Positions 23,929-43,050 of a stretch of 64,000 nt of DNA are shown here, in pieces. The stretch comes from Armatimonadota bacterium (GTDB lineage Bacteria; Armatimonadota; Fimbriimonadia; Fimbriimonadales; Fimbriimonadaceae). The stretch spans positions 62,001 to 126,000 of the forward strand of contig JAFDWU010000008.1 in the NCBI GenBank assembly GCA_018268315.1. The letters are read 5' to 3'. The notes under the pieces are model-generated. The model ran no database searches and was not told the DNA's origin. It was given only the letters and a program-made list of their open reading frames with translations. Made by a program: the position numbers and the translations under genes. Each line of letters begins with the position of its first letter. Position 1 is the stretch's first letter.

Positions 23929-24012
23929 GGTACGAAAAAGCAAAACCGGCCGGGATGAACCCGGCCGATTTTCGTTTTGAAGTTGAAACTTCCTATTTGC
24001 GGCGCTTGCGGA
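23929..24012. repeat. 84-bp repeat, copy 1 (terminator plus PEP-CTERM gene 3' end)
   Basis: These 84 bases recur at 25018-25101 with a single difference (23993, C to T, which changes TAG to TAA). The repeat contains the terminator hairpin and the last codons of the PEP-CTERM gene, encoding the basic C-terminal tail. Confidence 0.9.
23942..23974. terminator. Bidirectional terminator between thioredoxin-like and PEP-CTERM gene
   Basis: A perfect 8-bp hairpin, CGGCCGGG (23947-23954) with CCCGGCCG (23960-23967), loop ATGAA, is flanked by A and T runs on both sides. It can end the plus-strand thioredoxin-like gene and the minus-strand PEP-CTERM gene. An identical copy serves the next gene. Confidence 0.85.
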
Positions 24013-24892
24013 TGAGACCCGCAATCGCAAATCCCAGCACCGCCATCGAAGCGGGCTCAGGCACGGCGGTATTTCGGTAGTCGAATCCCGAACTTGACGA
24101 ATATCCCGCTCCGTTTACAAGATTGCCCTGAGAATCCCTCAAATTGCGGATTCCGCCCCAATAGCTGGAATTCCCAAGGTCAATCACCGAGTCCAACGTG
24201 CCACCGACACCCGACAGCTGATTATCGAACATGGTGTCCACCTGAAGGAAATTGTCCATGAAGATGGACTGCCCGTAGATGAATTCAAAAGTCACTGTCC
24301 GCTGATAAACGTTCAACTCGTCGCCAAAGTAATCCAGCGTTGTGGAATCGAAGTCTTTGCTCCACTCTCCGGCATAGTAAGCCGATTGAACCGGATTCCC
24401 ATTGATGTCGGTGACGCCATCAACGGTGACGTTGATCACCGCGTGCCAAAAGGCGTCGAACTGAGTATCCGGCGATGTACGATAGCCGTCGCTCAAGAAG
24501 GTAGTTCCGCTGCCCGCAACGTAGAGCGTCGCGTCGAAGAAACCATGCGTCCCATTGAGGTCCGCCTTGTCGAATTGGAAGGAATCTTGATAGCGGGAGG
24601 AAGCAAACCCGTACTCGAAGCCTAGCGGATTGTCGGGATTTGTACCGCTTAGATCGATCCTTGCCTTATTGACACCAAAACCGACATTGGCAACCCCAGC
24701 TACCCGTCCATAGCCGTCAATTACCTGCTCATGGGTTATCGCTCCAACCGGCTCTGGACCCTGTTCATAGTGTTCGTAGTAGGTATCGCCCAAAGAAAGG
24801 TTCATCCCATACTCAACCCAGTGCTGCGCATTAGCAAACGAGGCCGTCAGCGCCAGTGCGCCAACAAGTGGCCAACGATATTTCATAACCAT
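23993..24892 (-). CDS. PEP-CTERM sorting domain protein (exported)
   Basis: 299 residues: a signal peptide (residues 5-22, ending SFANA), a Tyr-, Asn- and Ser-rich extracellular body with beta-type segments, and a C-terminal signal starting VPEPASMAV, followed by a hydrophobic helix and the basic tail RKRRK. This is the PEP-CTERM layout, in which the Pro-Glu-Pro motif is the recognition site for an exosortase and the helix is removed. The exosortase gene is not in the window. A strong AAGGAGAG ribosome site precedes the ATG. The last codons belong to a repeat shared with the next gene. Confidence 0.9.
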   Translation of the reverse strand: MVMKYRWPLVGALALTASFANAQHWVEYGMNLSLGDTYYEHYEQGPEPVGAITHEQVIDGYGRVAGVANVGFGVNKARIDLSGTNPDNPLGFEYGFASSRYQDSFQFDKADLNGTHGFFDATLYVAGSGTTFLSDGYRTSPDTQFDAFWHAVINVTVDGVTDINGNPVQSAYYAGEWSKDFDSTTLDYFGDELNVYQRTVTFEFIYGQSIFMDNFLQVDTMFDNQLSGVGGTLDSVIDLGNSSYWGGIRNLRDSQGNLVNGAGYSSSSGFDYRNTAVPEPASMAVLGFAIAGLIRKRRK

Positions 24893-25017
24893 CTCTCCTT
24901 ACAAGTCCAACCGGACCTTTAACGAGTGTAAGTTGAATTTAGCGAATTCGCTTGAGGTTATATCCAATGACGTTATGCCATGGTACTGACAGCCCAGCCC
25001 AATTTGTTGCGGTGACG

Positions 25018-25101
25018 GGTACGAAAAAGCAAAACCGGCCGGGATGAACCCGGCCGATTTTCGTTTTGAAGTTGAAACTTCTTATTTGCGGCGCTTGCGG
25101 A
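25018..25101. repeat. 84-bp repeat, copy 2
   Basis: Matches 23929-24012 at 83 of 84 positions. Like copy 1 it spans a terminator hairpin and the 3' end of a PEP-CTERM gene. Confidence 0.9.
25036..25056 (-). terminator. Intrinsic terminator of the second PEP-CTERM gene
   Basis: Identical hairpin to the one at 23947-23967, placed 25 bases after the stop of the minus-strand PEP-CTERM gene. Confidence 0.8.
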
Positions 25102-25717
25102 GGAGGCCAACCGCGGCAATACCGAGCGCAGCCATCGAGGTGGGCTCAGGAACTGCAACCGTGCCATTCAGCTTTGCGGAACCACCGTTCGGCAGACCCT
25201 GCATGTGGACCATTGCGTAAATGTCCCTTGGGTTATCACCCTGCGGGGTTGCGAACGTAAGGAAGTGATTCGCATCTAGGCCGGTGCCCTTGACATCCCA
25301 GCTGACCGAGGTTCCACCAATAACGCGCTTGCCATTATTCGGAATGTTGAATGTTGCGTCGTAGTCAAACTTCTCACCAGCGTCGTTAACGAAGTTACTT
25401 CCGTGACTGTCTCCGGTGAAGCGACCCGACGGAGTGTCGGAGCCGGTAACGAAGGCAAAATCGCTCGGGATCGAGGTTAGATTCAGCAACAACTCCGTAA
25501 TGAACTGGCCCGAAGCGGGATCGGTCAGGTTCGTGAGAGTGAACTTAACCTTGTTCAGGCCGCTAACCGTACCATCGTTCACGATAGTCAACGATGCCCA
25601 AGCGGGAGGGCCGGACGGGGTGTCTCCAGAAAAGACGTTCGAAAAGTTAAACGTGATGGCCTGAGCGGACACAGCGCCAATCACAGCAAATGACAGCATC
25701 AAAAATTTCAACTTCAT
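25082..25717 (-). CDS. PEP-CTERM sorting domain protein (exported)
   Basis: 211 residues from ATG 25717, chosen because a GGAG ribosome site lies 11 bases upstream and a clear signal peptide (residues 3-20, ending VSAQA) follows. The body is beta-rich with Asp/Asn/Ser/Gly-rich segments and no recognised domain. It ends with VPEPTSMAALG, a hydrophobic helix and RKRRK, the PEP-CTERM signal. It is 32-odd percent shorter than its neighbour, and apart from the tail the two look unrelated. Confidence 0.88.
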   Translation of the reverse strand: MKLKFLMLSFAVIGAVSAQAITFNFSNVFSGDTPSGPPAWASLTIVNDGTVSGLNKVKFTLTNLTDPASGQFITELLLNLTSIPSDFAFVTGSDTPSGRFTGDSHGSNFVNDAGEKFDYDATFNIPNNGKRVIGGTSVSWDVKGTGLDANHFLTFATPQGDNPRDIYAMVHMQGLPNGGSAKLNGTVAVPEPTSMAALGIAAVGLLRKRRK

Positions 25718-25808
25718 ATAATTACTCCGAGGCAATTGTGAAACCAAAAACGCCAAAGTGTGACGACAAAACCGCGTTTTTGGCAGTTTTACTGGGCGAT
25801 TCCAGTAC

Positions 25809-27248
25809 TTATACTGGCTCTTTAAAGCTAGGATTGAGCACGCCACCCGCCAGCGAGTAGGCGTTGCTGATGCCTTGGGCGCGACACTGAGAAGCGACTT
25901 GATAGCTCCGCACCCCGTGGGCGCAGATGAAGACGGTTGGGGTCTCCGATGGCTCCCAAGTGAAGCGCGAGAGCGGGCTAACCTCGTGCTTTACCTTGAG
26001 TCTCGGAAGCTCATCGGATTCGCGAACATCAACGAGCCGGAACTCTCCCAGCTTTGCCTGGGCTTCTTCCAATGTTGCGACTTCAAGATCATTCGACGGC
26101 ATTTTGTAATCTCCCTGGCAGGCTGGGCAATATTCTCGCTTCTGGCGCGCCAGCCGTTGCGATTCGCCTGTTCGCAAATCGAAAAGCATGAGTTCCTGGC
26201 TAAGAACTTCTCCATATCCTAACAGCCCCTTGAGTACTTCATTTGCCTGCAAAATGCCAAATAGGCCGGGAGTTAAGCCCAGCACTCCTTCCTCCGCACA
26301 GGTTCCCACGCACGCATCGGGTGGCGTTTCCGGGAAGAGGCACTGAAGGCACGGCCCGTCGGGCATCACTGTCAGGATTTGGCCCTCGAAGCGGTGCACG
26401 CTCGCCGTGGTAAATGGCTTCCTAAGGCGCTTACATGCGGCGTTTAGGAGGAATTTGACTTCTAGCGAGTCGGTACCGTCGACGACCCAGTCGAACTGCT
26501 CCACCAATTCGTTAATGTTTATTTTTGATAACTTGTATGGAATCGTCGTGATGTTGATTGTCGGGTTTAAGCGTTTGGCAAACTCCGCTGCTCGCTCTAC
26601 TTTGATTTTGCCCTCATCCTGAGCGCGGTAGAGAATCTGGCGATGGAGGTTCGAGACGTCCACCACATCGTCGTCTACCAGCCCAATCGTGCCGATTCCC
26701 GCCGCCGCAAGATAGGGCAATGAGCCCGAGGCCAACCCACCGACGCCTACCAACAGAACTCGGGCTTCGCGCAAGCGCTGCTGGCCCGCCTCGCCGACCT
26801 CGGGTAGACGCAGCTGGCGCTCGTAGAACCTCTCGTCAATCGGCGCCACTGGTTCAACGGCGACCCAGCCCGAATCGCCATCAGCATAGAACTCCTTCTT
26901 CCAAATCGGTACCCGCTTCTTCAGCTCATCGATCAGCCACTCGCAGCCCTCAAACGCCGCCTTGCGATGCGCGGCGGCAACCTGAATCAACACCGCAGTC
27001 TCGCCAATTTCTAGCCTTCCCGTGCGGTGGATAACGCGAACATCGAGGAGTCTAAACCGCTGCATCGCCTCCTGGCAAAGCAGTTCCCCTTCACTGACGG
27101 CAAGCTCATCAAACGCCTCGTATTCTAGACGCAAAACCTGGCGGCCACCGGCATGATCTCTTACCTTGCCCTCGAAGGACACGAAACCGCCCGCGCTTGG
27201 CACTTCTCGTGCGGTTGCTGAGATGGGCTCTGGGGTGAGTGAGAACAC
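25809..27248 (-). CDS. MoaE-MoeB-rhodanese fusion protein
   Basis: 479 residues, three enzymes in one chain. Residues 1-128 are MoaE (large subunit of molybdopterin synthase, with the conserved HRK and PIWKKE segment at about 94-118). Residues 138-375 are a MoeB/ThiF adenylyltransferase: GVGGLASG at 168-175 for ATP, and zinc Cys pairs 300/303 and 374/377. Residues 385-479 are rhodanese with active-site Cys442 in CAHGVRS. MoeB adenylates the MoaD C-terminus, and the rhodanese could pass sulfur to it; MoaE then uses the MoaD thiocarboxylate to make molybdopterin. The start is GTG 27248, 5 bases after the moaD stop; a longer frame exists but would overlap moaD. Confidence 0.92.
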   Translation of the reverse strand: MFSLTPEPISATAREVPSAGGFVSFEGKVRDHAGGRQVLRLEYEAFDELAVSEGELLCQEAMQRFRLLDVRVIHRTGRLEIGETAVLIQVAAAHRKAAFEGCEWLIDELKKRVPIWKKEFYADGDSGWVAVEPVAPIDERFYERQLRLPEVGEAGQQRLREARVLLVGVGGLASGSLPYLAAAGIGTIGLVDDDVVDVSNLHRQILYRAQDEGKIKVERAAEFAKRLNPTINITTIPYKLSKININELVEQFDWVVDGTDSLEVKFLLNAACKRLRKPFTTASVHRFEGQILTVMPDGPCLQCLFPETPPDACVGTCAEEGVLGLTPGLFGILQANEVLKGLLGYGEVLSQELMLFDLRTGESQRLARQKREYCPACQGDYKMPSNDLEVATLEEAQAKLGEFRLVDVRESDELPRLKVKHEVSPLSRFTWEPSETPTVFICAHGVRSYQVASQCRAQGISNAYSLAGGVLNPSFKEPV

Positions 27249-27252
27249 GGTT

Positions 27253-27492
27253 CTAGCCCCCCGACACCGGCGGCAGGAGCACGACTTCATCGCCATCCGA
27301 CAGCTTGTCACCATCATTGGCAAATGATCCATTCACCGCGGCGCGAATCAACGAAGGGGGCAGGCCCAGCGAGTGCTGCCGAATAAGGCTTTCCACCAAT
27401 TCCCGTACCGTTCTCACATCGGTTTCAATCAGTTCCTCGCCAACACCACGGCGGTCCCTCAGAACGGCAAAATATCGAACTTTGATCTTCAT
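27253..27492 (-). CDS. moaD: Molybdopterin synthase small subunit (sulfur carrier)
   Basis: 79 residues of the ubiquitin-like fold with the C-terminal Gly-Gly (PPVSGG) that is adenylated and thiocarboxylated by a MoeB-type enzyme. The sequence FAVLRDRRGVGEELIE and DGDEVVLLPPVSGG is typical. It overlaps the moeA gene by four bases and is followed at once by the MoaE-MoeB-rhodanese gene, whose product modifies it. Confidence 0.93.
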   Translation of the reverse strand: MKIKVRYFAVLRDRRGVGEELIETDVRTVRELVESLIRQHSLGLPPSLIRAAVNGSFANDGDKLSDGDEVVLLPPVSGG

Positions 27493-28649
27493 GCCGGGCT
27501 CCAGGGCAACGCTATGAACTGAACTGCATCGCCCACGTTAAGCTTCACCGCGCCTTCGGGAAGGCGCGCCAGCCCATCGGCGCGTGGAAGTGAGAAGGTG
27601 GCGTGGCTTCCAACCGTCGGCAGCAGTTCAAGACCTGCCTCAACGTGGCGCGCGGGGATGAACCGCTCCCTTCCATCCTCTTCCTGATAGCCTTCGGCCA
27701 AGCGGCGCATTTGGAAATTTGGCGCATGCCCCAAGTACGCGCGAACGAATACAGAGAACATGACGAGCGCGGACATTGGGTTACCCGGCAAGCCAAACCA
27801 GGCTTTATCGCCCTTGATACCAAAGCAGGTCGGCCGGCCCGGACGGACGGCGATGCGTCCAACCAATTGCTTAAATCCTTCCGCAAGCATTACCTGACGA
27901 ACGAAGTCGTAATCGCCCACCGATGCGCCGCCGATAGTCAGCAGCAGGTCACAGGATTCCAACAGCCGCCTGATCGCTGTCGAAGTCTTCGTCAGATCAT
28001 CCTCCACCTGCTCGTGAACAACCACGCAACCCATCTGCTGAAGCAACGCGACCAGCGTTGCCGAGTTGGATTCGAAAATCTTTGCGGGTTCCGGCGGGCT
28101 TCCCGGAGATAATAGTTCCGAGCCGGTGCTGAGTATGGCTACGCTCGGCATCCGCGTCACCGGCAACGCCGCATAACCGGCGGCGGCAAGGCTGCTAAGC
28201 ATAGGCGGGTTGACGATCTGGCCCGCACGGGCAAGGTGAAAATCGGCGGGGTATTCCTCTCCCGCTTCGCGGATAAACGCCCCTGGGCGCGCTTCAACGG
28301 TGGCAACAAGCGAGTCGCTATCAACCGCTGCATTCTCTTGCGGCAGCACCGCTGCCGTTCCACTTGGAAGCATTGCACCAGTGAATATCCGTACCGCGCA
28401 GCCCGATTGCAGACCCGTTGCAGGCGCCGTCCCCGCCATCACTTCCCCGCTCAAGCGCCACGGTCCGCTGCCTGCAGGGTTCACGGCGTAACCATCCATC
28501 GCGCTGTTATCGAACGGCGGCGAGGGTTGGCTGGCAACAATGTCCTCGGCTAGAATTCGGCCCACGGAACTGGCGAGTGGAACAGACTCGCAGCCACCCT
28601 GCCAACGGTTGGCCTCGACGATGCGAAGGGTTTCGTCAACCGAGATCAA
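27489..28649 (-). CDS. moeA: Molybdopterin molybdenumtransferase
   Basis: 386 residues. MoeA inserts molybdate into adenylated molybdopterin. Conserved blocks are the N-terminal ILAEDIVASQPSPPFDNSAMDGYA, the sugar-binding-like TGSELL, GGASVGDYDFV and the closing PGNPMSALV segment (each read from the sequence). It overlaps moaD downstream and moaC-moaB upstream by four bases each, so it is translationally coupled in the operon. Confidence 0.93.
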   Translation of the reverse strand: MISVDETLRIVEANRWQGGCESVPLASSVGRILAEDIVASQPSPPFDNSAMDGYAVNPAGSGPWRLSGEVMAGTAPATGLQSGCAVRIFTGAMLPSGTAAVLPQENAAVDSDSLVATVEARPGAFIREAGEEYPADFHLARAGQIVNPPMLSSLAAAGYAALPVTRMPSVAILSTGSELLSPGSPPEPAKIFESNSATLVALLQQMGCVVVHEQVEDDLTKTSTAIRRLLESCDLLLTIGGASVGDYDFVRQVMLAEGFKQLVGRIAVRPGRPTCFGIKGDKAWFGLPGNPMSALVMFSVFVRAYLGHAPNFQMRRLAEGYQEEDGRERFIPARHVEAGLELLPTVGSHATFSLPRADGLARLPEGAVKLNVGDAVQFIALPWSPA

Positions 28650-29545
28650 TGCCCGCCTCCGGCGATCATTTCCTTCGCATGAAGAACGGCGGGGAAAAGG
28701 GCGTTCAAGGCATCCTTGCAGGCAGCCGGTGAACCAGGCAACGAGATGATCACGGATTTGCCTGCCAACCCTGCCACGGAGCGACTAAGCAGCGCAGTTC
28801 GCGCGCGCTCCTGGCTGTAGCTTCGAAATGTTTCGGCAATACCCGGCAGCGGCTTATCGATGATGCTTGAAAGCGAGTCTGGCGTGATGTCTCGCGGACC
28901 AACGCCGGTGCCGCCGGTGATGAGAATAAAGTCGACGCCCTGTGCAACCCACTGCGTTACCGCTTCCTGGATGGCGTGGACATCGTCAGGCACAACCGTT
29001 GGGCCGGGAACCTGGCCTCCCAACTCAGCCAACCCGGCGGCAAGAATTGCCCCGGAAACATCCTTTGACTCGCCCCGCGAGACTCGATCCGAAACCACAA
29101 GAACGGCAGAGGTCCAGCCGTTCGGCGCGGGGAAATCGCTTTTGCCGCCAGTTTTCTTCATGAGGCGGACGGAGCCAATCTCCATCTCCTCATCGATGGC
29201 CTTCAGCATGTCGTACAGGTTCAAAACCGCTGCGGAAGCCGCGGTGAGGGCTTCCATCTCAACCCCGGTTTTGGCAATGCTGACCACTTCAACCTCCACA
29301 TTGATGCCCGCCTCATGAACTTCGAACCGGACATCGACGAACTCGATCGGGATGTTGTGGCAGTAGGGAATCCACTCGGTGGTGCGCTTTGCAGCCATGA
29401 CTGCCGCGACCTTCGCAACCGGAAGCGGATCGCCCTTGGGGACCTTGCCTTCCCTTATCGCTCGCATCGTTTCGGGCGAAGCCTTGAGTTCGGCCCGCGC
29501 TAACGCGACACGCTTTGTCGAGACCTTGTGGCTAACATCCCTCAT
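28646..29545 (-). CDS. MoaC-MoaB fusion protein
   Basis: 299 residues. Residues 1-138 are MoaC, the cyclic pyranopterin monophosphate synthase (blocks PYCHNIPIEFVDV, KTGVEMEALTAASAA, LYDMLKAID). Residues 143-299 are MoaB/MogA, which adenylates molybdopterin (VVSDRVSRGESKD, TGGTGVGPRDITPD, SLPGSPAA). The two catalyse non-consecutive steps of the same pathway. The gene overlaps moaA upstream and moeA downstream by four bases each. Confidence 0.93.
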   Translation of the reverse strand: MRDVSHKVSTKRVALARAELKASPETMRAIREGKVPKGDPLPVAKVAAVMAAKRTTEWIPYCHNIPIEFVDVRFEVHEAGINVEVEVVSIAKTGVEMEALTAASAAVLNLYDMLKAIDEEMEIGSVRLMKKTGGKSDFPAPNGWTSAVLVVSDRVSRGESKDVSGAILAAGLAELGGQVPGPTVVPDDVHAIQEAVTQWVAQGVDFILITGGTGVGPRDITPDSLSSIIDKPLPGIAETFRSYSQERARTALLSRSVAGLAGKSVIISLPGSPAACKDALNALFPAVLHAKEMIAGGGH

Positions 29546-30597
29546 CCGCCGATTTGCACCATGCTGAGGTTATCGTACTGCTTCCACGCGCCCATCGGCG
29601 GGTGCCCTGCCCACTTTGTTTGCAAGCCGCTATGGATGGCAGCGGCGATTTCCTCATCGCACGATCCTGTGCGCGCCATGTCGCGAAGGCTGTTCTTAGG
29701 GGCGAGGAAAAGGCAGGTCTTCAGGCGACCGTCTGCGGTCAGGCGCACCCGGTTGCAATCGCTGCAGAAGTCCTCCGTCATGCTGGTGATAAACCCAACC
29801 GTCCCTTTGAAGCCTTCAATTCTGAACTCTTTTGCCACTTCGCTGGGCTCGCCGTCTCGTTGCAGCAATGCGTACTTCGCCTCGATAACCGAGCGCATTT
29901 CGCGGTAGCCGAACACCTTGTCCGCCTTCCACTCGTTGCCGCTGAACGGCATGAATTCGATGAACCTTACGGTAATCGGCTTGCTGCGTGTCAGCTCCAC
30001 AAAATCGAGCAACTCGTCATCGTTGACACCCGGCATCACCACCACATTCAGCTTCACCGGGATGCCAGCTTCCAGCGCCGCCTCGATCCCTGCCAGGACT
30101 TCACTTAGGACGTCGCGGTGCGTGATGGTCTTGAAGCGCTCGGGTTGAAGGGAGTCAATGCTGATGTTCAGGCCATCCAGGCCCGCCCGGTGCAGCCTTT
30201 CCGCGTTTGCCCGAAGCGCGGTTCCGTTCGTCGTCATCAGCAGCTTCTCCACACCGGGAATCGCCTTGATGCGCCCGACCAACTCGACGAAGCCCTTGCG
30301 GATGGCGGGCTCGCCGCCGGTCAGGCGAATCTTCGTGACCCCGAGCCGAGCGAACACCGATGCAAGCCGCACAACTTCATCGTCGCCAAGAAGCGATTTC
30401 GAAGGCATCCATTCGATGCCCCGTTTTGGCATGCAATAGGTGCAACGAAAGTTGCAGCGGTCGGTGAGAGAGACGCGAAGGTAGGTGTGCGTACGCCCAA
30501 AGCGATCCACCAGGGGGGACCAAACTGACTCGCTTTGGCAAAGCGTTTCCATTCCGTTCAATTCTAGACCGTTATCTGCAAGCGTAGTCCTACCCAC
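29542..30597 (-). CDS. moaA: GTP 3',8-cyclase
   Basis: 351 residues. A radical SAM enzyme that begins molybdenum-cofactor synthesis from GTP. The N-terminal cluster motif CNFRCTYC lies around residues 48-55, the second cluster motif is CSDCNRVRLTADGRLKTC near 270-287, and the chain ends in Gly-Gly as active MoaA proteins do. The start is GTG 30597, with an AGGAGAG ribosome site 5-6 bases before it; an ATG 15 codons later has no such site. It is the first gene of a five-gene operon. Confidence 0.95.
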   Translation of the reverse strand: MGRTTLADNGLELNGMETLCQSESVWSPLVDRFGRTHTYLRVSLTDRCNFRCTYCMPKRGIEWMPSKSLLGDDEVVRLASVFARLGVTKIRLTGGEPAIRKGFVELVGRIKAIPGVEKLLMTTNGTALRANAERLHRAGLDGLNISIDSLQPERFKTITHRDVLSEVLAGIEAALEAGIPVKLNVVVMPGVNDDELLDFVELTRSKPITVRFIEFMPFSGNEWKADKVFGYREMRSVIEAKYALLQRDGEPSEVAKEFRIEGFKGTVGFITSMTEDFCSDCNRVRLTADGRLKTCLFLAPKNSLRDMARTGSCDEEIAAAIHSGLQTKWAGHPPMGAWKQYDNLSMVQIGG

Positions 30598-30847
30598 GTG
30601 ATCTCTCCTACGGCCGAAATCAGCCGTTCGCGGCCCAAGTCATCACAGGATTTCGACGGCAAGGATTATTACGCCTTGCTTAACAGTGAAAACTCTGAGT
30701 TCTGTCGAAAGTCGCTAGACCTCACCTGATCTTTCGGTCGCATCGCAGACTTTAATTTGTGAAAAGGTCGTGCGATATGACGCCCGTCATAGTAGGGCAT
30801 CAAAACGGGCCTGATAATCGGTTGCAACCCTCACAGGACACATATCT
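30598..30847. other. Divergent intergenic region between moaA and the molybdoenzyme operon
   Basis: 250 bases with no gene. It holds the moaA ribosome site at its left end and the AGGACA element before the molybdoenzyme ATG at its right end. I looked for a molybdenum-cofactor riboswitch fold and for ModE/NarL-type palindromes and found nothing I can support. Confidence 0.5.
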
Positions 30848-33289
30848 ATGGCAACCCGACATCAAGTACCCGGACGCGCGCCAACAAAATCTCCGAGCGA
30901 AAAAGTCCGCGTTGTGCGCACGACCGATAGCCCGAATTGCACGGGTGCGTGCGGTTGGCTAGCAACCGTTGTCGATGACGTTATCGTCGACCTCAAGCCA
31001 GCGGCGGACTATCCCTGCCAAGAATACAACCCACGGGGATGCCTCAGGGGCATGTCGATGACCCACATCATTTATGGGCCCGATCGCATCCACACTCCAC
31101 GGATTCGCGAGGGAGCCCGTGGGGAAAACAAGTGGCGCGACGTTTCCTGGGATGAGGCGTTGGATTACATCGCAACGCGAATGATCAAGATTCGCGATGA
31201 ACATGGCCCGGAGTCGATGCTCTTATTCAATCAGGTCGTCGGCACCGGTTACGTCCAGAAGGGCGCGCAAGTGCGCACTGCCGCACTTCTCGGAATGTCG
31301 TTTGCAACCGCGTACGACTTCAACGGCGACATTTCGATGGGATTCACCCAAACCGTCGGCATCGACTGTGTTGAGTGCGAAACCAAGAGCTGGGCCCATT
31401 GCAAGACCGCGATTCTGTGGTCCAGCAACATCTTCCAAACCCGAATTCCAGATGCCAAGTTCTTAACAACCTACGCCAAGCAGCGCAACAACTGCGAAAT
31501 TATCTCCATCGATCCGCGATGTAGCCAGACCTCCAAGGGAGCAGACCAATGGCTACCGATTAACCCCGGAACGGATGGGGCGCTCGCCCTGTCCATGTGC
31601 CAAGTCGTGCTCGAAGCGGGCCATGTTGACTGGGCCTTCCTGCAAAAGAACACCGACATGTGCACGCTTGTGCGCGATGACAACGGGATGCGGCTTCGAG
31701 CCTCGGATGTGGGCATGGGTACCGATGCCGAATTCGTCGCCTGGGACAAATCCTCTGATGGCCCTTTCAAGCTGCCGATGGATTCCCTTCGCCTCCCCGA
31801 TGGCATTGAATTAGCTTTCATTGGCGCCCGCGAGGTTCTATTGCAGAACGGCCAGCGGATCAAAGTCACCCCTGTTTTCGAGTTGATTCAACAAGAGGTG
31901 ATGCAGCCGCAATACAGCCCCGAAGCAGTGGCCAAGGTTTGCGATATCCCCGCCGAGACCATTCGTAGCGTAGCGATCCGATACGCGACCGAGCGTCCAA
32001 GCTCGATCATCATTGGGATGGGGATCAACCACCGCCTTCACGGTGACCTAACGATCCGAAGCGTCTTGTTGCTGGCCACACTGGTGGGCGCGCACGGGCG
32101 TCCCGGCGAATCGGTTTCAATCTACTCGGGCCAACATCACTTTCGTCTCGACGTCTCGCCGTGGTGGTTCCCGGGAGGAAAGCGCCCGAATAGCGTCCCG
32201 ATGCACTACTTTGTCCTGGGCGAGCCAACCAAATCGATCAACCCCAAGATTAAGTTCCCGAAGAACGGCTTCAAGGCGCTCATCGTAAGCCACGCCAACC
32301 CCCTCGTGACGGAATTTTCTGCGCCACTCAAGCGGGCGATCGATAACCTCGACCTGTTCGTAGCAATCGATTTTTCCATGACGCCAACCTGCGAATACGC
32401 CGACATCGTTCTGCCCGCGCCTACATTCTGGGAGAAGGTTGACCTCGTCGGCACGAGCTGCCACCCGTATCTGCAGATTCAACAAGCCGTTGTGCCTCCG
32501 CAGTACGACAGCCGAACGGAGATGTGGATGATGCAGGAGATTCTCAAGCGCGTCGATCCCGAAAAGGCGGCAATGCTCGACTATACCGAGCAGGATGCGA
32601 TTCGGATCATGCTCGAGGGCGGGGGTAAAGAGGTCGAAGGGATTACCCTTGAACAGCTTGAAAAGGGCCCGGTTCGCCTCAAGGTGCATGATCCGGAATG
32701 CGGTTTGGACGAGCAGCTTCATGAAGACAAGCTGTTCCCACCTCGGGCATATCCTTTCCCCGAAGGCGCCCAGCGGGAGTTCCTTAAAACCGGCCGCATG
32801 GAGTTCTACAAGGAGGAGGACATCTTCCAAAAGATGGGTGAGACGATCCCCACGTTCCACTGGGCGTTCGAGCATCTTCCGAGATCGGCCCAGGAGATGC
32901 CGCTAGCAATCGTCACGCCGCACAGCAAGTGGCGCGTTCATAGCACGCACTGCAACAATCCATTCCTGCGGAATTTGAATCGCAAACCAGTCGTCGAAAT
33001 CAATCCGCGGGATGCAGCTCAGCGTGGGATTAACGATGGCGACAAAGTCGAGATCTACAACGAGTTCGGCGCCTATGAGCTGTGGGCTCTGGTCACAGAG
33101 ACAATCAAGCCCGGCGTCGTCTGCGTTGACCACGGCTGGTGGGACCGATACTTGGCTTCAGGAAAGTATCACAGCGTCCACACTTACCAGAAGGTCAAGC
33201 CGACCCACGAAGCCTACTTTCTGCCGGCGGTCTATGCCCCCGGGCAGCACTGGAAGGACACCCGAGTTGACGTAAGGAGGGCCAAGTAA
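30848..33289 (+). CDS. NarG-like type II molybdopterin oxidoreductase, catalytic subunit
   Basis: 813 residues. It belongs to the DMSO-reductase family. The N-terminal Fe-S segment reads D27-x3-C31-x3-C35-x29-C65 (with NCTGAC and NPRGC), where NarG has His at the first position. Asp161 in YDFNGD aligns with the Mo-ligand Asp of NarG, marking type II. Blocks QTRIPDAKF and INPGTDGALALSM also follow NarG. It is shorter than NarG (about 1240) and other type II enzymes. No Tat signal is seen. The substrate is unknown. It heads a five-gene operon, divergent from the cofactor operon, with an AGGACA element before the ATG. Confidence 0.85.
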   Translation: MATRHQVPGRAPTKSPSEKVRVVRTTDSPNCTGACGWLATVVDDVIVDLKPAADYPCQEYNPRGCLRGMSMTHIIYGPDRIHTPRIREGARGENKWRDVSWDEALDYIATRMIKIRDEHGPESMLLFNQVVGTGYVQKGAQVRTAALLGMSFATAYDFNGDISMGFTQTVGIDCVECETKSWAHCKTAILWSSNIFQTRIPDAKFLTTYAKQRNNCEIISIDPRCSQTSKGADQWLPINPGTDGALALSMCQVVLEAGHVDWAFLQKNTDMCTLVRDDNGMRLRASDVGMGTDAEFVAWDKSSDGPFKLPMDSLRLPDGIELAFIGAREVLLQNGQRIKVTPVFELIQQEVMQPQYSPEAVAKVCDIPAETIRSVAIRYATERPSSIIIGMGINHRLHGDLTIRSVLLLATLVGAHGRPGESVSIYSGQHHFRLDVSPWWFPGGKRPNSVPMHYFVLGEPTKSINPKIKFPKNGFKALIVSHANPLVTEFSAPLKRAIDNLDLFVAIDFSMTPTCEYADIVLPAPTFWEKVDLVGTSCHPYLQIQQAVVPPQYDSRTEMWMMQEILKRVDPEKAAMLDYTEQDAIRIMLEGGGKEVEGITLEQLEKGPVRLKVHDPECGLDEQLHEDKLFPPRAYPFPEGAQREFLKTGRMEFYKEEDIFQKMGETIPTFHWAFEHLPRSAQEMPLAIVTPHSKWRVHSTHCNNPFLRNLNRKPVVEINPRDAAQRGINDGDKVEIYNEFGAYELWALVTETIKPGVVCVDHGWWDRYLASGKYHSVHTYQKVKPTHEAYFLPAVYAPGQHWKDTRVDVRRAK

Positions 33290-34015
33290 ATGCCCCGCCT
33301 GTCCATGCTCATCGACCTGACCCGTTGCATAGGATGCGACGCCTGCACTCTGGCATGCAAGCAAGAAAACGGGACTCCCTTCGATACATTCTTCGCGCGA
33401 GTGCTCAATGTGGAAGTCGGCACTTACCCGGACGTCAAGCGGCTTTACATCCCGGTTCTTTGCAATCACTGTGACGACGCGCCGTGCCTGAAATCTTGCC
33501 CGAACAAAGCGATTATCCGGCGTCCAGACGGGATTGTTCTCGTCGACCAGGATCGATGCCGAGGAACCGGCGCATGTGTCTCGGCTTGCCCGTACGGGAA
33601 CATCATTCTCAATCGGGAGCCAGACTCCTGGTATCTGGACGAAGATGAGCCTTATGAGAAGGATTTCGTCAAGGCCCGACTCAAGCCCAATGTGGCGCGA
33701 AAGTGCACTTATTGCGCTCATCGCGTAGATCAGGGCTTAAAGCCCGCTTGCGTCGTGGCCTGCCCAACCACCGCGCGCATCTTTGGCGATCTTGAGGACG
33801 AAGCGAGCGACATTTCGCAATACGTCGCCCAGGAGCGCGAGACGACACAACGCAAGCCATTCCACCTTTTGGAAGAAGCCGGAACCAAGCCAGCCGGCTG
33901 CTACCTCGGACCCATGTCAAAGCAGGACCCACATACCCTTCACCAGACCGATGCCATTGGAGATGCGAAAACGGCTGAAATGGCACGCGTACCGCAACAG
34001 GGAGCTAAGAAATGA
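33290..34015 (+). CDS. Fe-S electron-transfer subunit (NarH/PsrB-like)
   Basis: 241 residues with four cysteine motifs: C13-C16-C19-C23, C58-C61-C66-C70, C90-T93-C96-C100 and C139-C142-C154-C158. The third has Thr93 where a cysteine would normally sit, the same position where NarH has Trp, which gives a [3Fe-4S] cluster there. It should carry electrons between the molybdoenzyme and the membrane partners. It starts directly after the catalytic gene's stop (TAAATG), so the two are coupled. No signal peptide is seen. Confidence 0.9.
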   Translation: MPRLSMLIDLTRCIGCDACTLACKQENGTPFDTFFARVLNVEVGTYPDVKRLYIPVLCNHCDDAPCLKSCPNKAIIRRPDGIVLVDQDRCRGTGACVSACPYGNIILNREPDSWYLDEDEPYEKDFVKARLKPNVARKCTYCAHRVDQGLKPACVVACPTTARIFGDLEDEASDISQYVAQERETTQRKPFHLLEEAGTKPAGCYLGPMSKQDPHTLHQTDAIGDAKTAEMARVPQQGAKK

Positions 34016-35130
34016 ATGCAAGGCTCGTTTATCTGACTATCCTCGCTGGGCTCACCGCTACGATATTCGGCCAGACGCCCACGAGGGATGTCTTTGGAGG
34101 CAGCAGCTGTATGGGTTGCCACGGCCAAAGCGCGATGGGAGGCTTAGGCCCGCCCCTTGCGAAAACAAAGCTGTCCATTGAGGAGTTTCAGAAGATCGTT
34201 CGAAGCGGCAAAGGAATGATGCCGGCGATCAAAGAGAACGACTTAAGCCCTGGCGACCTTCAAGAGGTTTACACCGAAGTCTCCAACAAGCCTTGGTTGG
34301 AGGACCAGATACCGATCGCCTATAAGGTAGGCAGATTCCTGAGCCCCACGAGCGTTAGCCACATTTTCATGGTGGCATTCCTCTTCTGCGGCATTTTCGC
34401 GGTTAGAGGGATCACCTATTGGCTGAGGTGCGCCGGATTCAAGCAGCTATTGCCGAGTCTAGCCAAGTTGGGCTGGGCTAAGGCAATCGGTATTGCCTTA
34501 AAGTCCCTCATCGTAGATGGGTTCCTTGTGGGTTCCCTTTGGAAGAACAACAAGAAGCGATGGGTCATGCATGGCCTCCTCATTTACGGGTTCTGTGGGC
34601 TCCTCCTTGCTGATATCCTGATCGCCATTTTCAATCCGCAGCGCGGACAGCTTCCCTTGACTGATCCCCTGAAGTTGCTCCCCATCGTTAGTGGCTTCGC
34701 AGTCGCCCTCGGAGTGTGCTATGTGATGTACCGCTACAAGAAGGACGAGTACATCGACAACGGGCTTACTCTCGGCAAGGACTTTCTGTTCGTAAATCTC
34801 CTCTTTCACGTCGCGATAAGCGGGTTCCTGGTGGTCACCCTCAAGCGCCTTGGGATCAACGACTGGGTGATGACGATTTATCTCTACCACCTAGCATCTG
34901 TGTTTCTCTTGATCGTTACTGGACCATTCACCCGATTCCAGCACATGTACGTTGTCCCAATAATGGTCGCAGTTACACGGCTAACCGAAGCGGTAACGGC
35001 AACAGGCGTCGAACTGGGATTTCAACGGGAGCCTTCGCCCGGCCGTCACCACAAGTCCGCGCGAATTGCGGAGGATGTGCTTAAGCAAGTTGGCCTTGAA
35101 GGCAAGGTCGTTATGCGCTACTACCCCTAA
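34012..35130 (+). CDS. Cytochrome c fused to membrane cytochrome b-like domain
   Basis: 372 residues. After a signal peptide (5-20) comes a haem c site, C33-M-G-C36-H37, with a possible Met ligand in GKGMMPAI around residue 70. From about residue 115 the chain has several membrane helices with histidines (HIFMVAFLFCG, MHGLLIYGF, HVAISGFLV, YHLASVFLLI), resembling NarI-type b-haem subunits. It may accept electrons from quinol or pass them between haem c and the Fe-S subunit. It overlaps the previous gene by four bases and touches the Rieske gene. Confidence 0.8.
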   Translation: MNARLVYLTILAGLTATIFGQTPTRDVFGGSSCMGCHGQSAMGGLGPPLAKTKLSIEEFQKIVRSGKGMMPAIKENDLSPGDLQEVYTEVSNKPWLEDQIPIAYKVGRFLSPTSVSHIFMVAFLFCGIFAVRGITYWLRCAGFKQLLPSLAKLGWAKAIGIALKSLIVDGFLVGSLWKNNKKRWVMHGLLIYGFCGLLLADILIAIFNPQRGQLPLTDPLKLLPIVSGFAVALGVCYVMYRYKKDEYIDNGLTLGKDFLFVNLLFHVAISGFLVVTLKRLGINDWVMTIYLYHLASVFLLIVTGPFTRFQHMYVVPIMVAVTRLTEAVTATGVELGFQREPSPGRHHKSARIAEDVLKQVGLEGKVVMRYYP

Positions 35131-35637
35131 ATGGATCGAAACATGTCACACGAAGAAACCAATCCAGACAGCATTCAAATCTCTCGCCGCAAGATGATGG
35201 GCGTAGTGGTTGGCGTGATCAACCTCGGACTCATTGCGTCGGTAGTGGGCCCCGTCATCGGCTTTGCGGCGGCGCCGCTTGGGCAAAAGCGCAAGCAACA
35301 ATGGATCGCCCTGATGGACGAAAAGTTGATCGGTCCAGGCGAAGTGAAAGAAGTCACCTATTCGCTCAAGATCGTCGACGGCTACCACGAAGTCGAGCAG
35401 ATGTACACCGTATATCTGAGGCGCGGAACCGATGATGTGATCTGCATTGACCCCACCTGCACCCACTTGGGATGCCGCGTGAAATATCAGACCGAGCACC
35501 ACAAGTTTGTTTGCCCATGTCATGGAGGCGTCTTCGACGACGAGGGCAACAACAAGAGCGGCCCACCGCCCAAGCCGCTCGAACGACATCCAGTCAAGAT
35601 CGAGGGCGGCAAAGTTTGGATATCAAGGGACGTTTAA
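35131..35637 (+). CDS. Rieske [2Fe-2S] protein
   Basis: 168 residues. The [2Fe-2S] ligands are C110-T-H112-LGC115 and C128-P-C130-H131. An N-terminal SRRKMMG motif followed by a hydrophobic helix (24-47) is a twin-arginine signal anchor, placing the cluster on the outer face of the membrane. It pairs with the following cytochrome b as in bc-type complexes. The ATG directly follows the previous stop; an alternative ATG at 35143 would shorten it by four residues. Confidence 0.92.
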   Translation: MDRNMSHEETNPDSIQISRRKMMGVVVGVINLGLIASVVGPVIGFAAAPLGQKRKQQWIALMDEKLIGPGEVKEVTYSLKIVDGYHEVEQMYTVYLRRGTDDVICIDPTCTHLGCRVKYQTEHHKFVCPCHGGVFDDEGNNKSGPPPKPLERHPVKIEGGKVWISRDV

Positions 35638-35638
35638 A

Positions 35639-36844
35639 GTGGAAGGCAAGAAAACTCTCGAACTGGAAGAATCTCGGACACTCAGCCCTGAAACCAGGTT
35701 CAATCAAACTCGCGAAACCGGAAGCGAGCAAGAGCGATTGGTCATAGATCGACCGAAATTAAGCGATTGGCTCGAACTTCGTTTAGGTTGGTACGGATTC
35801 GTTCGAAAGAATCTGGATGAGCCAATGCCTCCTGGAGTGGGCTGGTGGCAAACGCTGGGCAACCTTATCATGACCTTGCTCATCTTCCAGTTCGTAACTG
35901 GATTCGCGCTTGCTATGTACTATTCTCCGAGCCCCGAGGCGGCGCATGCAAGCGTGAGGCACATCACCTATGATGTGACCCTCGGCTCATTTATCCGTGG
36001 ACTGCACGCTTGGGGCTCCTCGGTTATCGTTTTCGTGGTCGCCTTGCATACCATGCGCGTCTTCTTCTGGGGCTCCTACAAGAAGCCCAGAGAGGTCACG
36101 TGGCTCGCTGGCGTTGTGATTTTCCAAATCGTGCTGGGTTTCTCGTTCACGGGATACCTTCTGCCGTGGGATCAGCGCGCTTATTGGGCGACGGTTGTGG
36201 GAACTCGCATCGCGGCAACGGTTCCGCTCATTGGGCATCAGCTTCTGGTGTTCATCCGGGGTGGCGAAGAGGTGGGGGCGCTAACCTTGACCCGCTTCTT
36301 CTCGTTCCATGTGATGCTGCTTCCCGCGTCCCTGATGGCCTTCATGCTTGCCCACCTCTTCTTGGTTCGCAAACACCATATTGCCGGCCCGGTTGAGCCG
36401 CAAAAGGGTCCGCCGGTTCCGTTCTATCCGAATCAGCTATTCAAAGATGCGATAGTTCTGCTTGTCGGCGTAGGGCTGCTCATCTACCTCGCCATCGCGT
36501 TCCCGCCGGCTCTTGAGGCGGTTGCGAACCCGACTGGAACGGACTTTAGCCCGCGACCGGAGTGGTACTTCCTGGGTCTTTACGAGCTACTCAAGATAAT
36601 GCCTCCAGGGTGGGAGGTAGTCGCCGCCGTCATTATTCCTACCACTGTCACAATCGGCATGATTCTGTTGCCATGGCTCGACCGGAGCCGAAGCCGACAC
36701 CCTGCCAAGCGGCAATGGGTAATTTTTTCAGGCATAGCCGTAATTCTTTTGATCGGGCTAATGACGCTGAAGGGAATTTTGGAAACACCCCCGGAGCACA
36801 AAGCGGCCTCAACGGAAGCAGTCGCCGGGAAGCAAACACCTTGA
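35639..36844 (+). CDS. Cytochrome b of bc/b6-type
   Basis: 401 residues with about seven to eight membrane helices. The b-haem histidines are H123 and H137 (13 residues between) and H224 and H239 (14 between); the second spacing is the cytochrome b6 type. PEWY at 307-310 marks the quinol oxidation site. The start is GTG 35639, one base after the Rieske stop, with AAGGGA ahead; a longer frame into the Rieske gene is rejected. With the Rieske protein it should oxidise menaquinol. The chain is one piece, unlike split b6/subunit IV. Confidence 0.9.
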   Translation: MEGKKTLELEESRTLSPETRFNQTRETGSEQERLVIDRPKLSDWLELRLGWYGFVRKNLDEPMPPGVGWWQTLGNLIMTLLIFQFVTGFALAMYYSPSPEAAHASVRHITYDVTLGSFIRGLHAWGSSVIVFVVALHTMRVFFWGSYKKPREVTWLAGVVIFQIVLGFSFTGYLLPWDQRAYWATVVGTRIAATVPLIGHQLLVFIRGGEEVGALTLTRFFSFHVMLLPASLMAFMLAHLFLVRKHHIAGPVEPQKGPPVPFYPNQLFKDAIVLLVGVGLLIYLAIAFPPALEAVANPTGTDFSPRPEWYFLGLYELLKIMPPGWEVVAAVIIPTTVTIGMILLPWLDRSRSRHPAKRQWVIFSGIAVILLIGLMTLKGILETPPEHKAASTEAVAGKQTP

Positions 36845-40855: not shown

Positions 40856-40947
40856 TATTGGTTTCTAACAGTTTAAGACGATGGGAGAACTCCCGTGTGT
40901 CGCCCCCGTATGGTACAACGACCCAAGTTCGAATCGGAGGAGTGAGG

Positions 40948-43050
40948 TTGGAGCCAACAAGGCAAGAGTTTTTCGGGTTTTTGCTTCCAGAGAAGCTGCT
41001 GTTCTACTTCCTTGCATTCCTTTCGCTTGGAATTTGCTTCTGGCAGATTCGCTCGCGCATCGCGCTTTGGCTATCCGGCAAGCCGCTTGGCCCTATTCGG
41101 GAAGGCATTAAATATTGGCTTCCGACCCGCGAGGGGCTTGGGCGCTGGGCGAACAACGTTGGACTCTACGTAATCGGCCAAAAAAAGGTGCGATCCAGCA
41201 GGCCGCGTAGCGGCGCGCCGATGCACTTGATGCTGTTTTACGGCTTTCTGACACTCTTCATCGGCACTACGCTGCTTGCCATCAACACCTACTCCCCGTT
41301 CAAGTTCCACAAGGGTCTCTACTATCTGATCTACGAAATGGCCCTGGACGTGATGGGCCTTGGCTTCCTTATTGCGTGCGTTTGGGCATTCTTCCGACGC
41401 CTTGCGATGACCCGGGCCGAACTTGGCTGGGCGGACTATCACGGCGATCAGGACGAGAAGCAGTGGCGTGAGGGCCGTCGCCGCCCGATGTCCGGCACGA
41501 TGAACGACTACGCCGTGCTGGGACTGCTCTTCATCACCGGCTTTACCGGCTATCTGGCGGAAGCCGCGCGAATGGCGCTGAATCCCCAGCCATTTGATTG
41601 GAGCGCGCCCGTCGGCCATGCCCTTAGCCTAGCGCTGCCGCAGTTGAGCGTGGAGCAGTACAAGTTTGTTTGGTGGTTCCACATGGCATGGGTGTTCGCC
41701 TTCTTCATGCTGATTCCCCGCTTCCGGCTGCGCCACATCGTGATGGCGATCCTGGTTTCGGCGGGATACGAGAAGAAGCCGTGGGGCGAACTAAAGCCGA
41801 TCACGATGGAAGAGGTCGAGACGACCGGCCAGATCGGTGTGACGCTGGCAAAGGATTACAGCCGATGGCAACTCATGAGCATGGACGCCTGCATGGAGTG
41901 CGGACGCTGCACCGAGGTCTGCCCCGCGTGGAACGTGGGCAAAGTTCTAAACCCCAAGCTGGTGGTGCAGGATATTCGCGGCTCGATGGCCTCGGGTGTT
42001 GCCGTGGCTGAAGCGGTTTCCGAAGAAGCGTTGTGGGCGTGCACGACGTGTAACGCCTGTGTTGAGGCGTGCCCAGTTCTGATTCCTCATGTCGACCTGA
42101 TCGTAGGCGCGCGAAGGAGCCTCGTTGCCGAAGGCAAGCTTTCCGGCACCGGGGCGACGATGCTGCGCCAGGTTGGCAGCACGGGCAGCGCCTGGGGACA
42201 GGCGGCGATTGATCGCGAAGACTGGATGAAAGGGCTGGACGTTCCCCTTTGCCGCGATGGCGTTGAGTTTGAGTATTTGATGTGGGTTGGGTGCGCGGGC
42301 GCGACTGATCCGGGAGCAATCCGCACCACGAAGGCGGTCGCCCAACTGCTGAAGAGGGCGGGAGTGAAGTTCGCCTGCCTGGGCAAAGAAGAGGCATGCA
42401 CCGGAGACCCGGCGCGGCGCATCGGAGAGGAATTCCTTTTCCAGGAAAAGGCGATGCAGAACGTCTCGGTCTTCCAGAAGTACAAGGTGAAGAAGATCGT
42501 CACCGCCTGCCCGCACTGCATGAACACGTTTAAGAACGAGTATCACCAGTTCGACGGCGACGTGGAGGTGGTGCACCACACGCAGCTGCTTTCGCAGCTT
42601 GTGGACGATGGCAAGCTGGCGGCATCCAACCCGAATAAGGGCGAAGTGACCTACCACGACCCTTGCTATCTGGCTCGAGTGAACAACGAGAGCGACGCGC
42701 CTCGTTCGCTTGTTGGCGACGCCACGAATTTGAACAGCGAAGCCATCGACCTCGTCCAGTGGCTACAAAACGGACCGTCTTCTGGCGGCGCTTTGGCGGA
42801 GCCCGAGCATCGCGGCCGCAAGACGCTTTGCTGCGGCGCGGGCGGCGGGCGCATGTGGATGGAAGAAGAGCCAAACCAGCGGCCCGGAAACCGGCGCGCG
42901 GAGGAGCTACTGGCGACCGGCGCAAAGACGGTCGCGGTGGGCTGCCCATTCTGCCGAATCATGCTTGATGCCAGCATCAAACAGGTCTCGGAAGAGGAGA
43001 TTCGGCTAGTAGATCTTGCCGAAATGCTTCAGGAAGCAAACGCCGAATGA
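40948..43050 (+). CDS. EtfD-like membrane Fe-S oxidoreductase (ETF:menaquinone type)
   Basis: 700 residues from TTG 40948, which has GGAGG 7 bases upstream; a longer frame is open but not used. Residues 1-260 hold about five to six membrane helices of the NarI/HdrE kind. Two [4Fe-4S] motifs follow, CMECGRCTEVCP and CTTCNACVEACP, then two CCG-type domains (CPHCMNTF, CCGAGGGRMW). This layout fits the electron-transfer flavoprotein:menaquinone oxidoreductase (EtfD) family, which feeds electrons from fatty-acid or amino-acid oxidation into the quinone pool. No etfAB is adjacent, so the role is inferred. Confidence 0.82.
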   Translation: MEPTRQEFFGFLLPEKLLFYFLAFLSLGICFWQIRSRIALWLSGKPLGPIREGIKYWLPTREGLGRWANNVGLYVIGQKKVRSSRPRSGAPMHLMLFYGFLTLFIGTTLLAINTYSPFKFHKGLYYLIYEMALDVMGLGFLIACVWAFFRRLAMTRAELGWADYHGDQDEKQWREGRRRPMSGTMNDYAVLGLLFITGFTGYLAEAARMALNPQPFDWSAPVGHALSLALPQLSVEQYKFVWWFHMAWVFAFFMLIPRFRLRHIVMAILVSAGYEKKPWGELKPITMEEVETTGQIGVTLAKDYSRWQLMSMDACMECGRCTEVCPAWNVGKVLNPKLVVQDIRGSMASGVAVAEAVSEEALWACTTCNACVEACPVLIPHVDLIVGARRSLVAEGKLSGTGATMLRQVGSTGSAWGQAAIDREDWMKGLDVPLCRDGVEFEYLMWVGCAGATDPGAIRTTKAVAQLLKRAGVKFACLGKEEACTGDPARRIGEEFLFQEKAMQNVSVFQKYKVKKIVTACPHCMNTFKNEYHQFDGDVEVVHHTQLLSQLVDDGKLAASNPNKGEVTYHDPCYLARVNNESDAPRSLVGDATNLNSEAIDLVQWLQNGPSSGGALAEPEHRGRKTLCCGAGGGRMWMEEEPNQRPGNRRAEELLATGAKTVAVGCPFCRIMLDASIKQVSEEEIRLVDLAEMLQEANAE

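Follow-up and report, generated by a model that had tools for sequence, protein, structure and literature searches.

Analysis of a 64,000-nucleotide stretch of Armatimonadota DNA (hereafter the window) revealed five tightly coupled genes at positions 30848-36844, encoding a type-II-like molybdoenzyme with its Fe-S protein, a membrane protein with haem c, and the Rieske and cytochrome b proteins. The genes are real and conserved rather than chance open reading frames (ORFs). Their spacings, in order, are 0 bp, a 4-bp overlap, 0 bp and 1 bp, which agrees with the coupling without gaps described in a first-pass annotation of this DNA. Our analysis suggests that the operon probably encodes a membrane-bound quinol:nitrate oxidoreductase with a cytoplasmic active site, fed via a dedicated Rieske/cytochrome b complex. 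The genome belongs to the Fimbriimonadia, and the records in which close relatives were found bear the names Fimbriimonadaceae/Fimbriimonadia or those of other Armatimonadota.

All five genes lie on the + strand. The first (30848..33289) encodes a catalytic Mo-bis(molybdopterin guanine dinucleotide) subunit of 813 amino acids, matched by the Pfam Molybdopterin (5e-51) and dinucleotide-binding (4e-25) families and also by the Fe4S4 domain. It carries no twin-arginine translocation (Tat) signal, has an N-terminal [4Fe-4S] site at D27/C31/C35/C65 and has D161 as its predicted Mo ligand. The second gene (33290..34015) encodes the Fe-S electron-transfer subunit of 241 amino acids (Fer4_11, 4e-24); both subunit lengths are those given in the earlier annotation. 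Fifteen motif cysteines are kept in this subunit in 31/31 relatives. The second cysteine of motif III is replaced by threonine or alanine in Armatimonadota and Bacillota, with CxxC found in two Chloroflexi. Because of this replacement, and by analogy with NarH, the cluster content is likely to be three [4Fe-4S] and one [3Fe-4S]. The four clusters annotated before are thus likely, with 15 rather than 16 motif cysteines conserved.

The third gene (34012..35130) encodes a membrane protein of 372 amino acids with an N-terminal transmembrane segment or signal, one c-type haem (CMGCH) and a NarI/QmoC-like part. It was matched by the profiles Cytochrome_CBB3 (8e-11) and QmoC (6e-16) and, in a profile comparison, by NarI (1q16_C, E=0.002). 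In the NarI-like part, three histidines are invariant: H187, H293 and H311. Of these, H293 and H311 are 18 residues apart, as are the NarI haem ligands H187 and H205. NarI was also the top Foldseek match, a weak one (E=0.05, root-mean-square deviation ~11 A), and it was dropped as evidence in favour of the profile match and histidine conservation. The Fe-S subunit and the haem c/NarI-like protein are fused in many relatives, and a hydrophobic segment separates the Fe-S domain from haem c in these fusions, so the natural reading of the topology would place Fe-S on the inside and haem c on the outside. A fusion protein of H1_ARM1 (L067, 11505-13586) contains two CxxCH motifs, which makes its haem c domain a diheme one.

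The fourth gene (35131..35637) encodes a Rieske [2Fe-2S] protein of 168 amino acids (Rieske, 3e-10) with an RRKMMG-type N-terminal anchor and CTHLGC/CPCHG motifs. The fifth (35639..36844) encodes a b6-type cytochrome b with a fused subunit-IV-like C-terminus (Cytochrome_B, 7e-54; Cytochrom_B_C, 2e-10). The most likely start of the latter is GTG 35639, giving 401 amino acids; TTG 35507, taken from a mechanical ORF list, was rejected as it overlaps the Rieske gene and yields an extension without a domain. Among 23 aligned sequences, the Rieske ligands (CTHxxC/CPCH), the cytochrome b histidine ligands 123/137 and 224/239 and the PEWY motif were invariant in all 23, in line with the b6-like cytochrome b with PEWY previously annotated. 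PF00033 has no match in the genome other than the operon cytochrome b, while the aa3-type oxidase (COX1) locus has an alternative complex III (ACIII)-like gene set upstream, as read from gene order and sequence. On these grounds the Rieske/cytochrome b module appears to be dedicated to the molybdoenzyme.

Comparative analysis of Armatimonadota genomes, largely metagenome-assembled and not corrected for relatedness in the associations given below, showed that 32 of the 113 genomes in the class Fimbriimonadia (22 of 47 genera) encode the catalytic subunit, at 70-84% identity. Across the phylum, 40 of 291 Armatimonadota genomes match the family profile, some of these matches being more distant. 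The same five-gene order, with Rieske and cytochrome b included, was found in 19 of 20 class loci examined. The nearest relatives found beyond the phylum belong to Desulfosporosinus, Peptococcaceae CEB3 and Bacillota Bu12 (54-59% identity), and two Chloroflexi relatives show 45-47% identity. The Bacillota loci comprise only the catalytic, Fe-S and NarI-like genes; their NarI-like protein is without haem c, and no Rieske/cytochrome b neighbour was found beside them. Since these relatives have three genes without haem c, the haem c and Rieske/cytochrome b modules would have been added in the Armatimonadota line.

Comparison of the catalytic subunit with characterised enzymes revealed a distinct family. 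The best NCBIfam model was DMSO_red_II_alp (TIGR03479; 485 bits, below its cut-off of 985), and the narG model TIGR01580 scored 228 bits, below its cut-off of 1084. Among solved structures, PcrA is the nearest relative both by sequence and by fold; the AlphaFold2 (AF2) fold is nearest to PcrA, followed by EbdA, NxrA and NarG. In a tree of 23 sequences, from which NxrA (compared by fold only), SerA and DdhA were left out, the catalytic subunits of Armatimonadota, Bacillota and Chloroflexi form their own clade (support 98/97). This clade is sister to a group of NarG, haloarchaeal NarG, PcrA, ClrA, EbdA and a plasmid-borne homologue, and lies inside none of them. A subunit inside a characterised clade of known substrate would have contradicted the first-pass annotation; the placement outside every such clade included in the tree does not.

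At the active site, D161 was invariant in 28 of 28 homologues and aligns with the aspartic acid that is the Mo ligand in NarG and PcrA; we infer that it coordinates Mo. The ligand position of the N-terminal cluster, FS0, is occupied by histidine in NarG, PcrA, ClrA and EbdA, by Asp27 in Armatimonadota and Bacillota, and by cysteine in the two Chloroflexi. The gate position held by Phe164 in PcrA is Ala155 here and glycine in some Bacillota. A comparison of active-site funnels based on the AF2 model proved unusable, with residues 155-169, 428-432 and 692-711 at a predicted local distance difference test score <50. Read by eye, and with no signal-peptide predictor, neither the window protein nor the listed Armatimonadota and Bacillota homologues showed a Tat signal, and twin-arginine N-termini were seen in the catalytic subunits of the two Chloroflexi relatives. 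There is a strong case that the active site is cytoplasmic, because the catalytic and Fe-S subunits are predicted to lack a Tat signal and because of the association with NarK described below.

Other type-II enzymes were encountered in the same survey. Two single-contig genomes, both of which also contain the operon, encode at L170 (G071) and L171 (G070) a Tat-exported enzyme of ~1171-1201 amino acids (328 bits to TIGR03479, no narG match), which is possibly NxrA-like. A further Armatimonadota enzyme at L144 (G229) has a Tat-like N-terminus and the glutamic acid of nitrate reductases, and groups near PcrA and haloarchaeal NarG. Plasmid-borne homologues were considered as family members and rejected as other lineages, serving only as tree references. 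One of these, on a conjugative plasmid of Alisedimentitalea (L085, 6672-12201), is 33% identical to the window protein and adjoins a chlorite dismutase-family gene, a TorD-type chaperone and a cytochrome c; it may represent a new chlorate/perchlorate reductase branch.

Analysis of genomic context points to nitrate. NarK (called with TIGR00886 at E<=1e-30, a threshold-dependent call, as is that of NasC at E<=1e-150) occurs in 31 of 32 class genomes with the enzyme vs 19 of 81 without it. Among the 68 genomes with neither NasC nor NarG, NarK occurs in 12/12 with the enzyme vs 1/56 without (Fisher p ~2e-12, ignoring phylogeny). NarK lies <=15 kb from the enzyme in 22 of 32 genomes, and its placement varies among them. 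It follows the operon directly on the same strand in G052, G007, G042 and G011, directly precedes it on that strand in G183, and is divergent at ~0.2-0.3 kb in G037, G060, G070 and G071. NrfA was found in 15 of 32 genomes with the enzyme vs 9 of 81 without. The sole MopB proteins of G052, which has two NarK genes and NrfA, are the operon enzyme and NuoG; those of G041 are the operon enzyme, NuoG and a YdeP-type protein. Canonical NarG is present in one of 113 class genomes, and that genome is without the operon enzyme. NnrS-like, CRP/FNR-type and molybdenum cofactor (Moco) genes recur close to the operon. In Desulfosporosinus, Hcp is among the neighbours; one strain also has a hemerythrin and a SLAC1-type channel there, and another has a NIR_SIR-domain protein. 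A NirK-type nitrite reductase was rejected as partner, as only one weak match occurs in the whole class. The annotation had seen no obvious substrate; this was overstated, since the NarK linkage, the NrfA enrichment and the presence of no other candidate enzyme in some genomes make nitrate the likely substrate.

Several observations weigh against this assignment and against the proposed complex. The tyrosine two residues ahead of the Mo-ligating aspartic acid in NarG and PcrA is Asn159 in all 28 aligned homologues, and His430 (tyrosine in Chloroflexi) occupies the position of a glutamic acid in E. coli NarG and of W461 in PcrA. The predicted active site thus does not match known nitrate reductases, and as its residues differ from both NarG and PcrA, sequence alone leaves the substrate unnamed. 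The NarI-like part has only three invariant histidines vs four in NarI; these suffice for one b haem, and perhaps for two if another ligand is used. Many enzyme-bearing genomes also hold a NasC-type assimilatory enzyme, itself able to explain NarK. In the genome of the window, NarK adjoins NasC on another contig, and for this reason it may serve both NasC and the operon enzyme there. G070 and G071 carry the second, Tat-exported type-II enzyme mentioned above, the associations are uncorrected for phylogeny in a largely metagenome-assembled set, and no biochemistry of any family member was found in the literature.

The arrangement of the subunits suggests a possible route for electrons. NarK would import nitrate, and the Rieske/cytochrome b module would oxidise quinol at its PEWY site. 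From there one electron would pass through the Rieske centre to haem c at the outer face of the third subunit, recross the membrane via the b haem(s) of the NarI-like helices and reach the Mo centre through the Fe-S subunit; at the Mo centre, nitrate would be reduced to nitrite. Such a path would place a Q-cycle in series with a trans-membrane electron step of the NarI type, and would conserve more charge per nitrate than NarGHI does. This order of carriers and its stoichiometry are offered tentatively, with confidence somewhat short of even. It is conceivable but doubtful that respiratory nitrate reductases have here an additional class, distinct from the Nar, Nap and Nxr lineages, in which the Q-cycle of a dedicated Rieske/cytochrome b module would supply the cytoplasmic Mo site by way of haems that span the membrane, with Q-cycle and redox-loop energy conservation stacked in one complex.

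The substrate and the direction of catalysis could be read differently. With PcrA as the best solved relative and active-site residues unlike those of NarG, the enzyme might reduce another oxyanion, such as chlorate, perchlorate, selenate, or a sulfur or arsenic oxyanion. The linkage to NarK and the position outside the ClrA, PcrA and EbdA lineages make this improbable; the plasmid homologue beside the chlorite dismutase-family gene is a different lineage at 33% identity, and no chlorite dismutase (Cld) was recognised among the neighbouring ORFs read by eye, no search aimed at Cld having been made. The annotation had also suggested that the complex may run in reverse. As a cytoplasmic nitrite oxidoreductase (NXR), it would pass electrons from nitrite through haem c to an oxidase. 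NXR is among the type-II enzymes, superposition of the AF2 model is about equally good for NxrA and NarG, the third subunit has haem c and the genome has an aa3-type oxidase. Against these points stand the co-occurrence of NrfA with the enzyme and the quinol-oxidising Rieske/cytochrome b module in the operon, which points to a quinol donor. Also against them, the closest relatives beyond the phylum, with Hcp as neighbour, belong to Desulfosporosinus, known as anaerobic sulfate reducers. Nitrite oxidation fits the context less well than nitrate reduction, and we consider it very improbable.

Another question concerns the electron path and not the substrate. As in NarGHI, electrons might pass from quinol straight to the NarI-like subunit, and Rieske and cytochrome b would then form a separate, merely co-transcribed bc-type complex for other acceptors. 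The Bacillota relatives would suit this, having only the catalytic, Fe-S and NarI-like subunits, with neither haem c nor a Rieske/cytochrome b neighbour found. Direct reduction is nevertheless unlikely in the class, where 19 of 20 loci keep the five-gene order; the genome has a single PF00033 cytochrome b and an ACIII-like complex for O2 respiration, and the gained haem c would supply an acceptor for the Rieske centre. A quinol:nitrate oxidoreductase fed through its own Rieske/cytochrome b complex remains our preferred interpretation.

Among known systems, the haloarchaeal narB/narC operon is the closest arrangement. In this operon, with narB encoding a Rieske protein and narC a cytochrome b, a Q-cycle has been proposed and NarGH is outward-facing (PMC2483277). 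This system, pNar (narB-narC-narGH-narJ; Haloferax/Haloarcula, also L088), shares with the Armatimonadota operon the genes for a type-II molybdoenzyme and its Fe-S subunit next to those for Rieske and cytochrome b. It differs in facing outward and in having a NarJ/TorD-type gene, whereas the Armatimonadota enzyme is predicted to be cytoplasmic, with no NarJ found, has a haem c/NarI-like subunit and sits outside the NarG clade. The relation to haloarchaeal nitrate reductases drawn in the first-pass annotation is thus retained as a quinol-linked, type-II-like complex of similar arrangement; the enzyme is not NarGH, and the orientation is predicted to be cytoplasmic here vs outside there. As annotated, narJ is absent: no NarJ/TorD gene was found in the operon, and PF02613 was without a match anywhere in the genome. 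For Methanoperedens, nitrate respiration has been modelled as fed by an unusual, separate Rieske/cytochrome b complex, with an outward-facing nitrate reductase (PMC4683180). The use of a Rieske/cytochrome b complex is common to both proposals, but Methanoperedens is archaeal, its nitrate reductase carries a Tat signal and is accompanied by NarJ, and its Rieske/cytochrome b genes lie in a separate cluster.

Bacterial NarGHI resembles the complex in its cytoplasmic active site (predicted here), Mo-coordinating aspartic acid, likely [3Fe-4S] cluster, NarI-like subunit and NarK neighbours. It differs in that the catalytic subunit is only 28% identical to E. coli NarG (813 vs 1247 amino acids), FS0 histidine is replaced by Asp27, NarJ was not found, and the Armatimonadota complex has an extra haem c and Rieske/cytochrome b. 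PcrA (4ydd/5e7o), the closest solved structure, is periplasmic and 32% identical, and its F164, Y168 and W461 correspond to A155, N159 and H430 here. The three-gene loci of Desulfosporosinus, Peptococcaceae CEB3 and Bacillota Bu12 share D27, N159 and H430 in catalytic subunits 54-59% identical, but have no haem c, and their NarI-like subunit is 26-27% identical overall. On present evidence, the complex would act like a respiratory nitrate reductase yet is no member of NarGHI or pNar, since it lacks features that define them.

Literature searches, with most subscription journals outside their reach, found no description of this complex, and a MopB survey (PMC10100899) makes no mention of Armatimonad- or Desulfosporosinus. 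To our knowledge, a nitrate reductase wired to its own Rieske/cytochrome b complex, as proposed here, is an electron route not described before. If the interpretation holds, the operon encodes a candidate enzyme of nitrate respiration in a class rich in uncultured members and with canonical NarG in a single genome, and narG-based marker-gene surveys would overlook it. It would also be a testable case of a Q-cycle and trans-membrane electron transfer in series, and would bear on the recruitment of Rieske/cytochrome b complexes into anaerobic respirations. Some Desulfosporosinus strains are reported to reduce nitrate with a NarG match of only 30-31% or none, and without a close NarG or NapA homologue (Table 1, PMC10949509). 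The same enzyme core may help to explain this nitrate reduction, which is offered as a lead only.

Divergent from the operon, a block of Moco genes occupies 25809..30597 on the - strand, separated from it by an intergenic region (30598..30847) that is presumed from sequence to hold both promoters. With names read from the ORF sequences, the block comprises MoaA (29542-30597), a MoaC-Mog fusion (28646-29545), MoeA (27489-28649) and a MoaE-MoeB/ThiF-like fusion (25809-27332). The two fused genes, within 25809-29545, encode 299 amino acids (MoaC with a Mog-type domain) and 507 amino acids (MoaE with MoeB/ThiF and a rhodanese-like end). Homologues of Moco genes occur close to the operon in several relatives. 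The earlier description of a complete, divergent cofactor operon stands for the presence and orientation of the genes but not for completeness, as MoaD was not found and a MobA-like gene sits elsewhere, at L127. This second locus of the same genome (contig C2, 8442-18846) encodes, besides the MobA-like gene, a NasC-like enzyme, a NarI/QmoC-like membrane protein, a CRP-type regulator, an NnrS-like protein, NarK, a ferredoxin-like protein and an alginate-export-type porin. It is odd for an assimilatory-type NasC to be paired with a NarI-like membrane protein.

Two further features of the window were observed. A protein of 730 amino acids (40858-43050) combines membrane helices at its N-terminus with a [4Fe-4S] domain and two CCG domains, and is similar to fused HdrDE or EtfD-type quinone oxidoreductases. 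An adjacent pair of PEP-CTERM-type secreted proteins ending in GLxRKRRK is encoded at 23993-25846.

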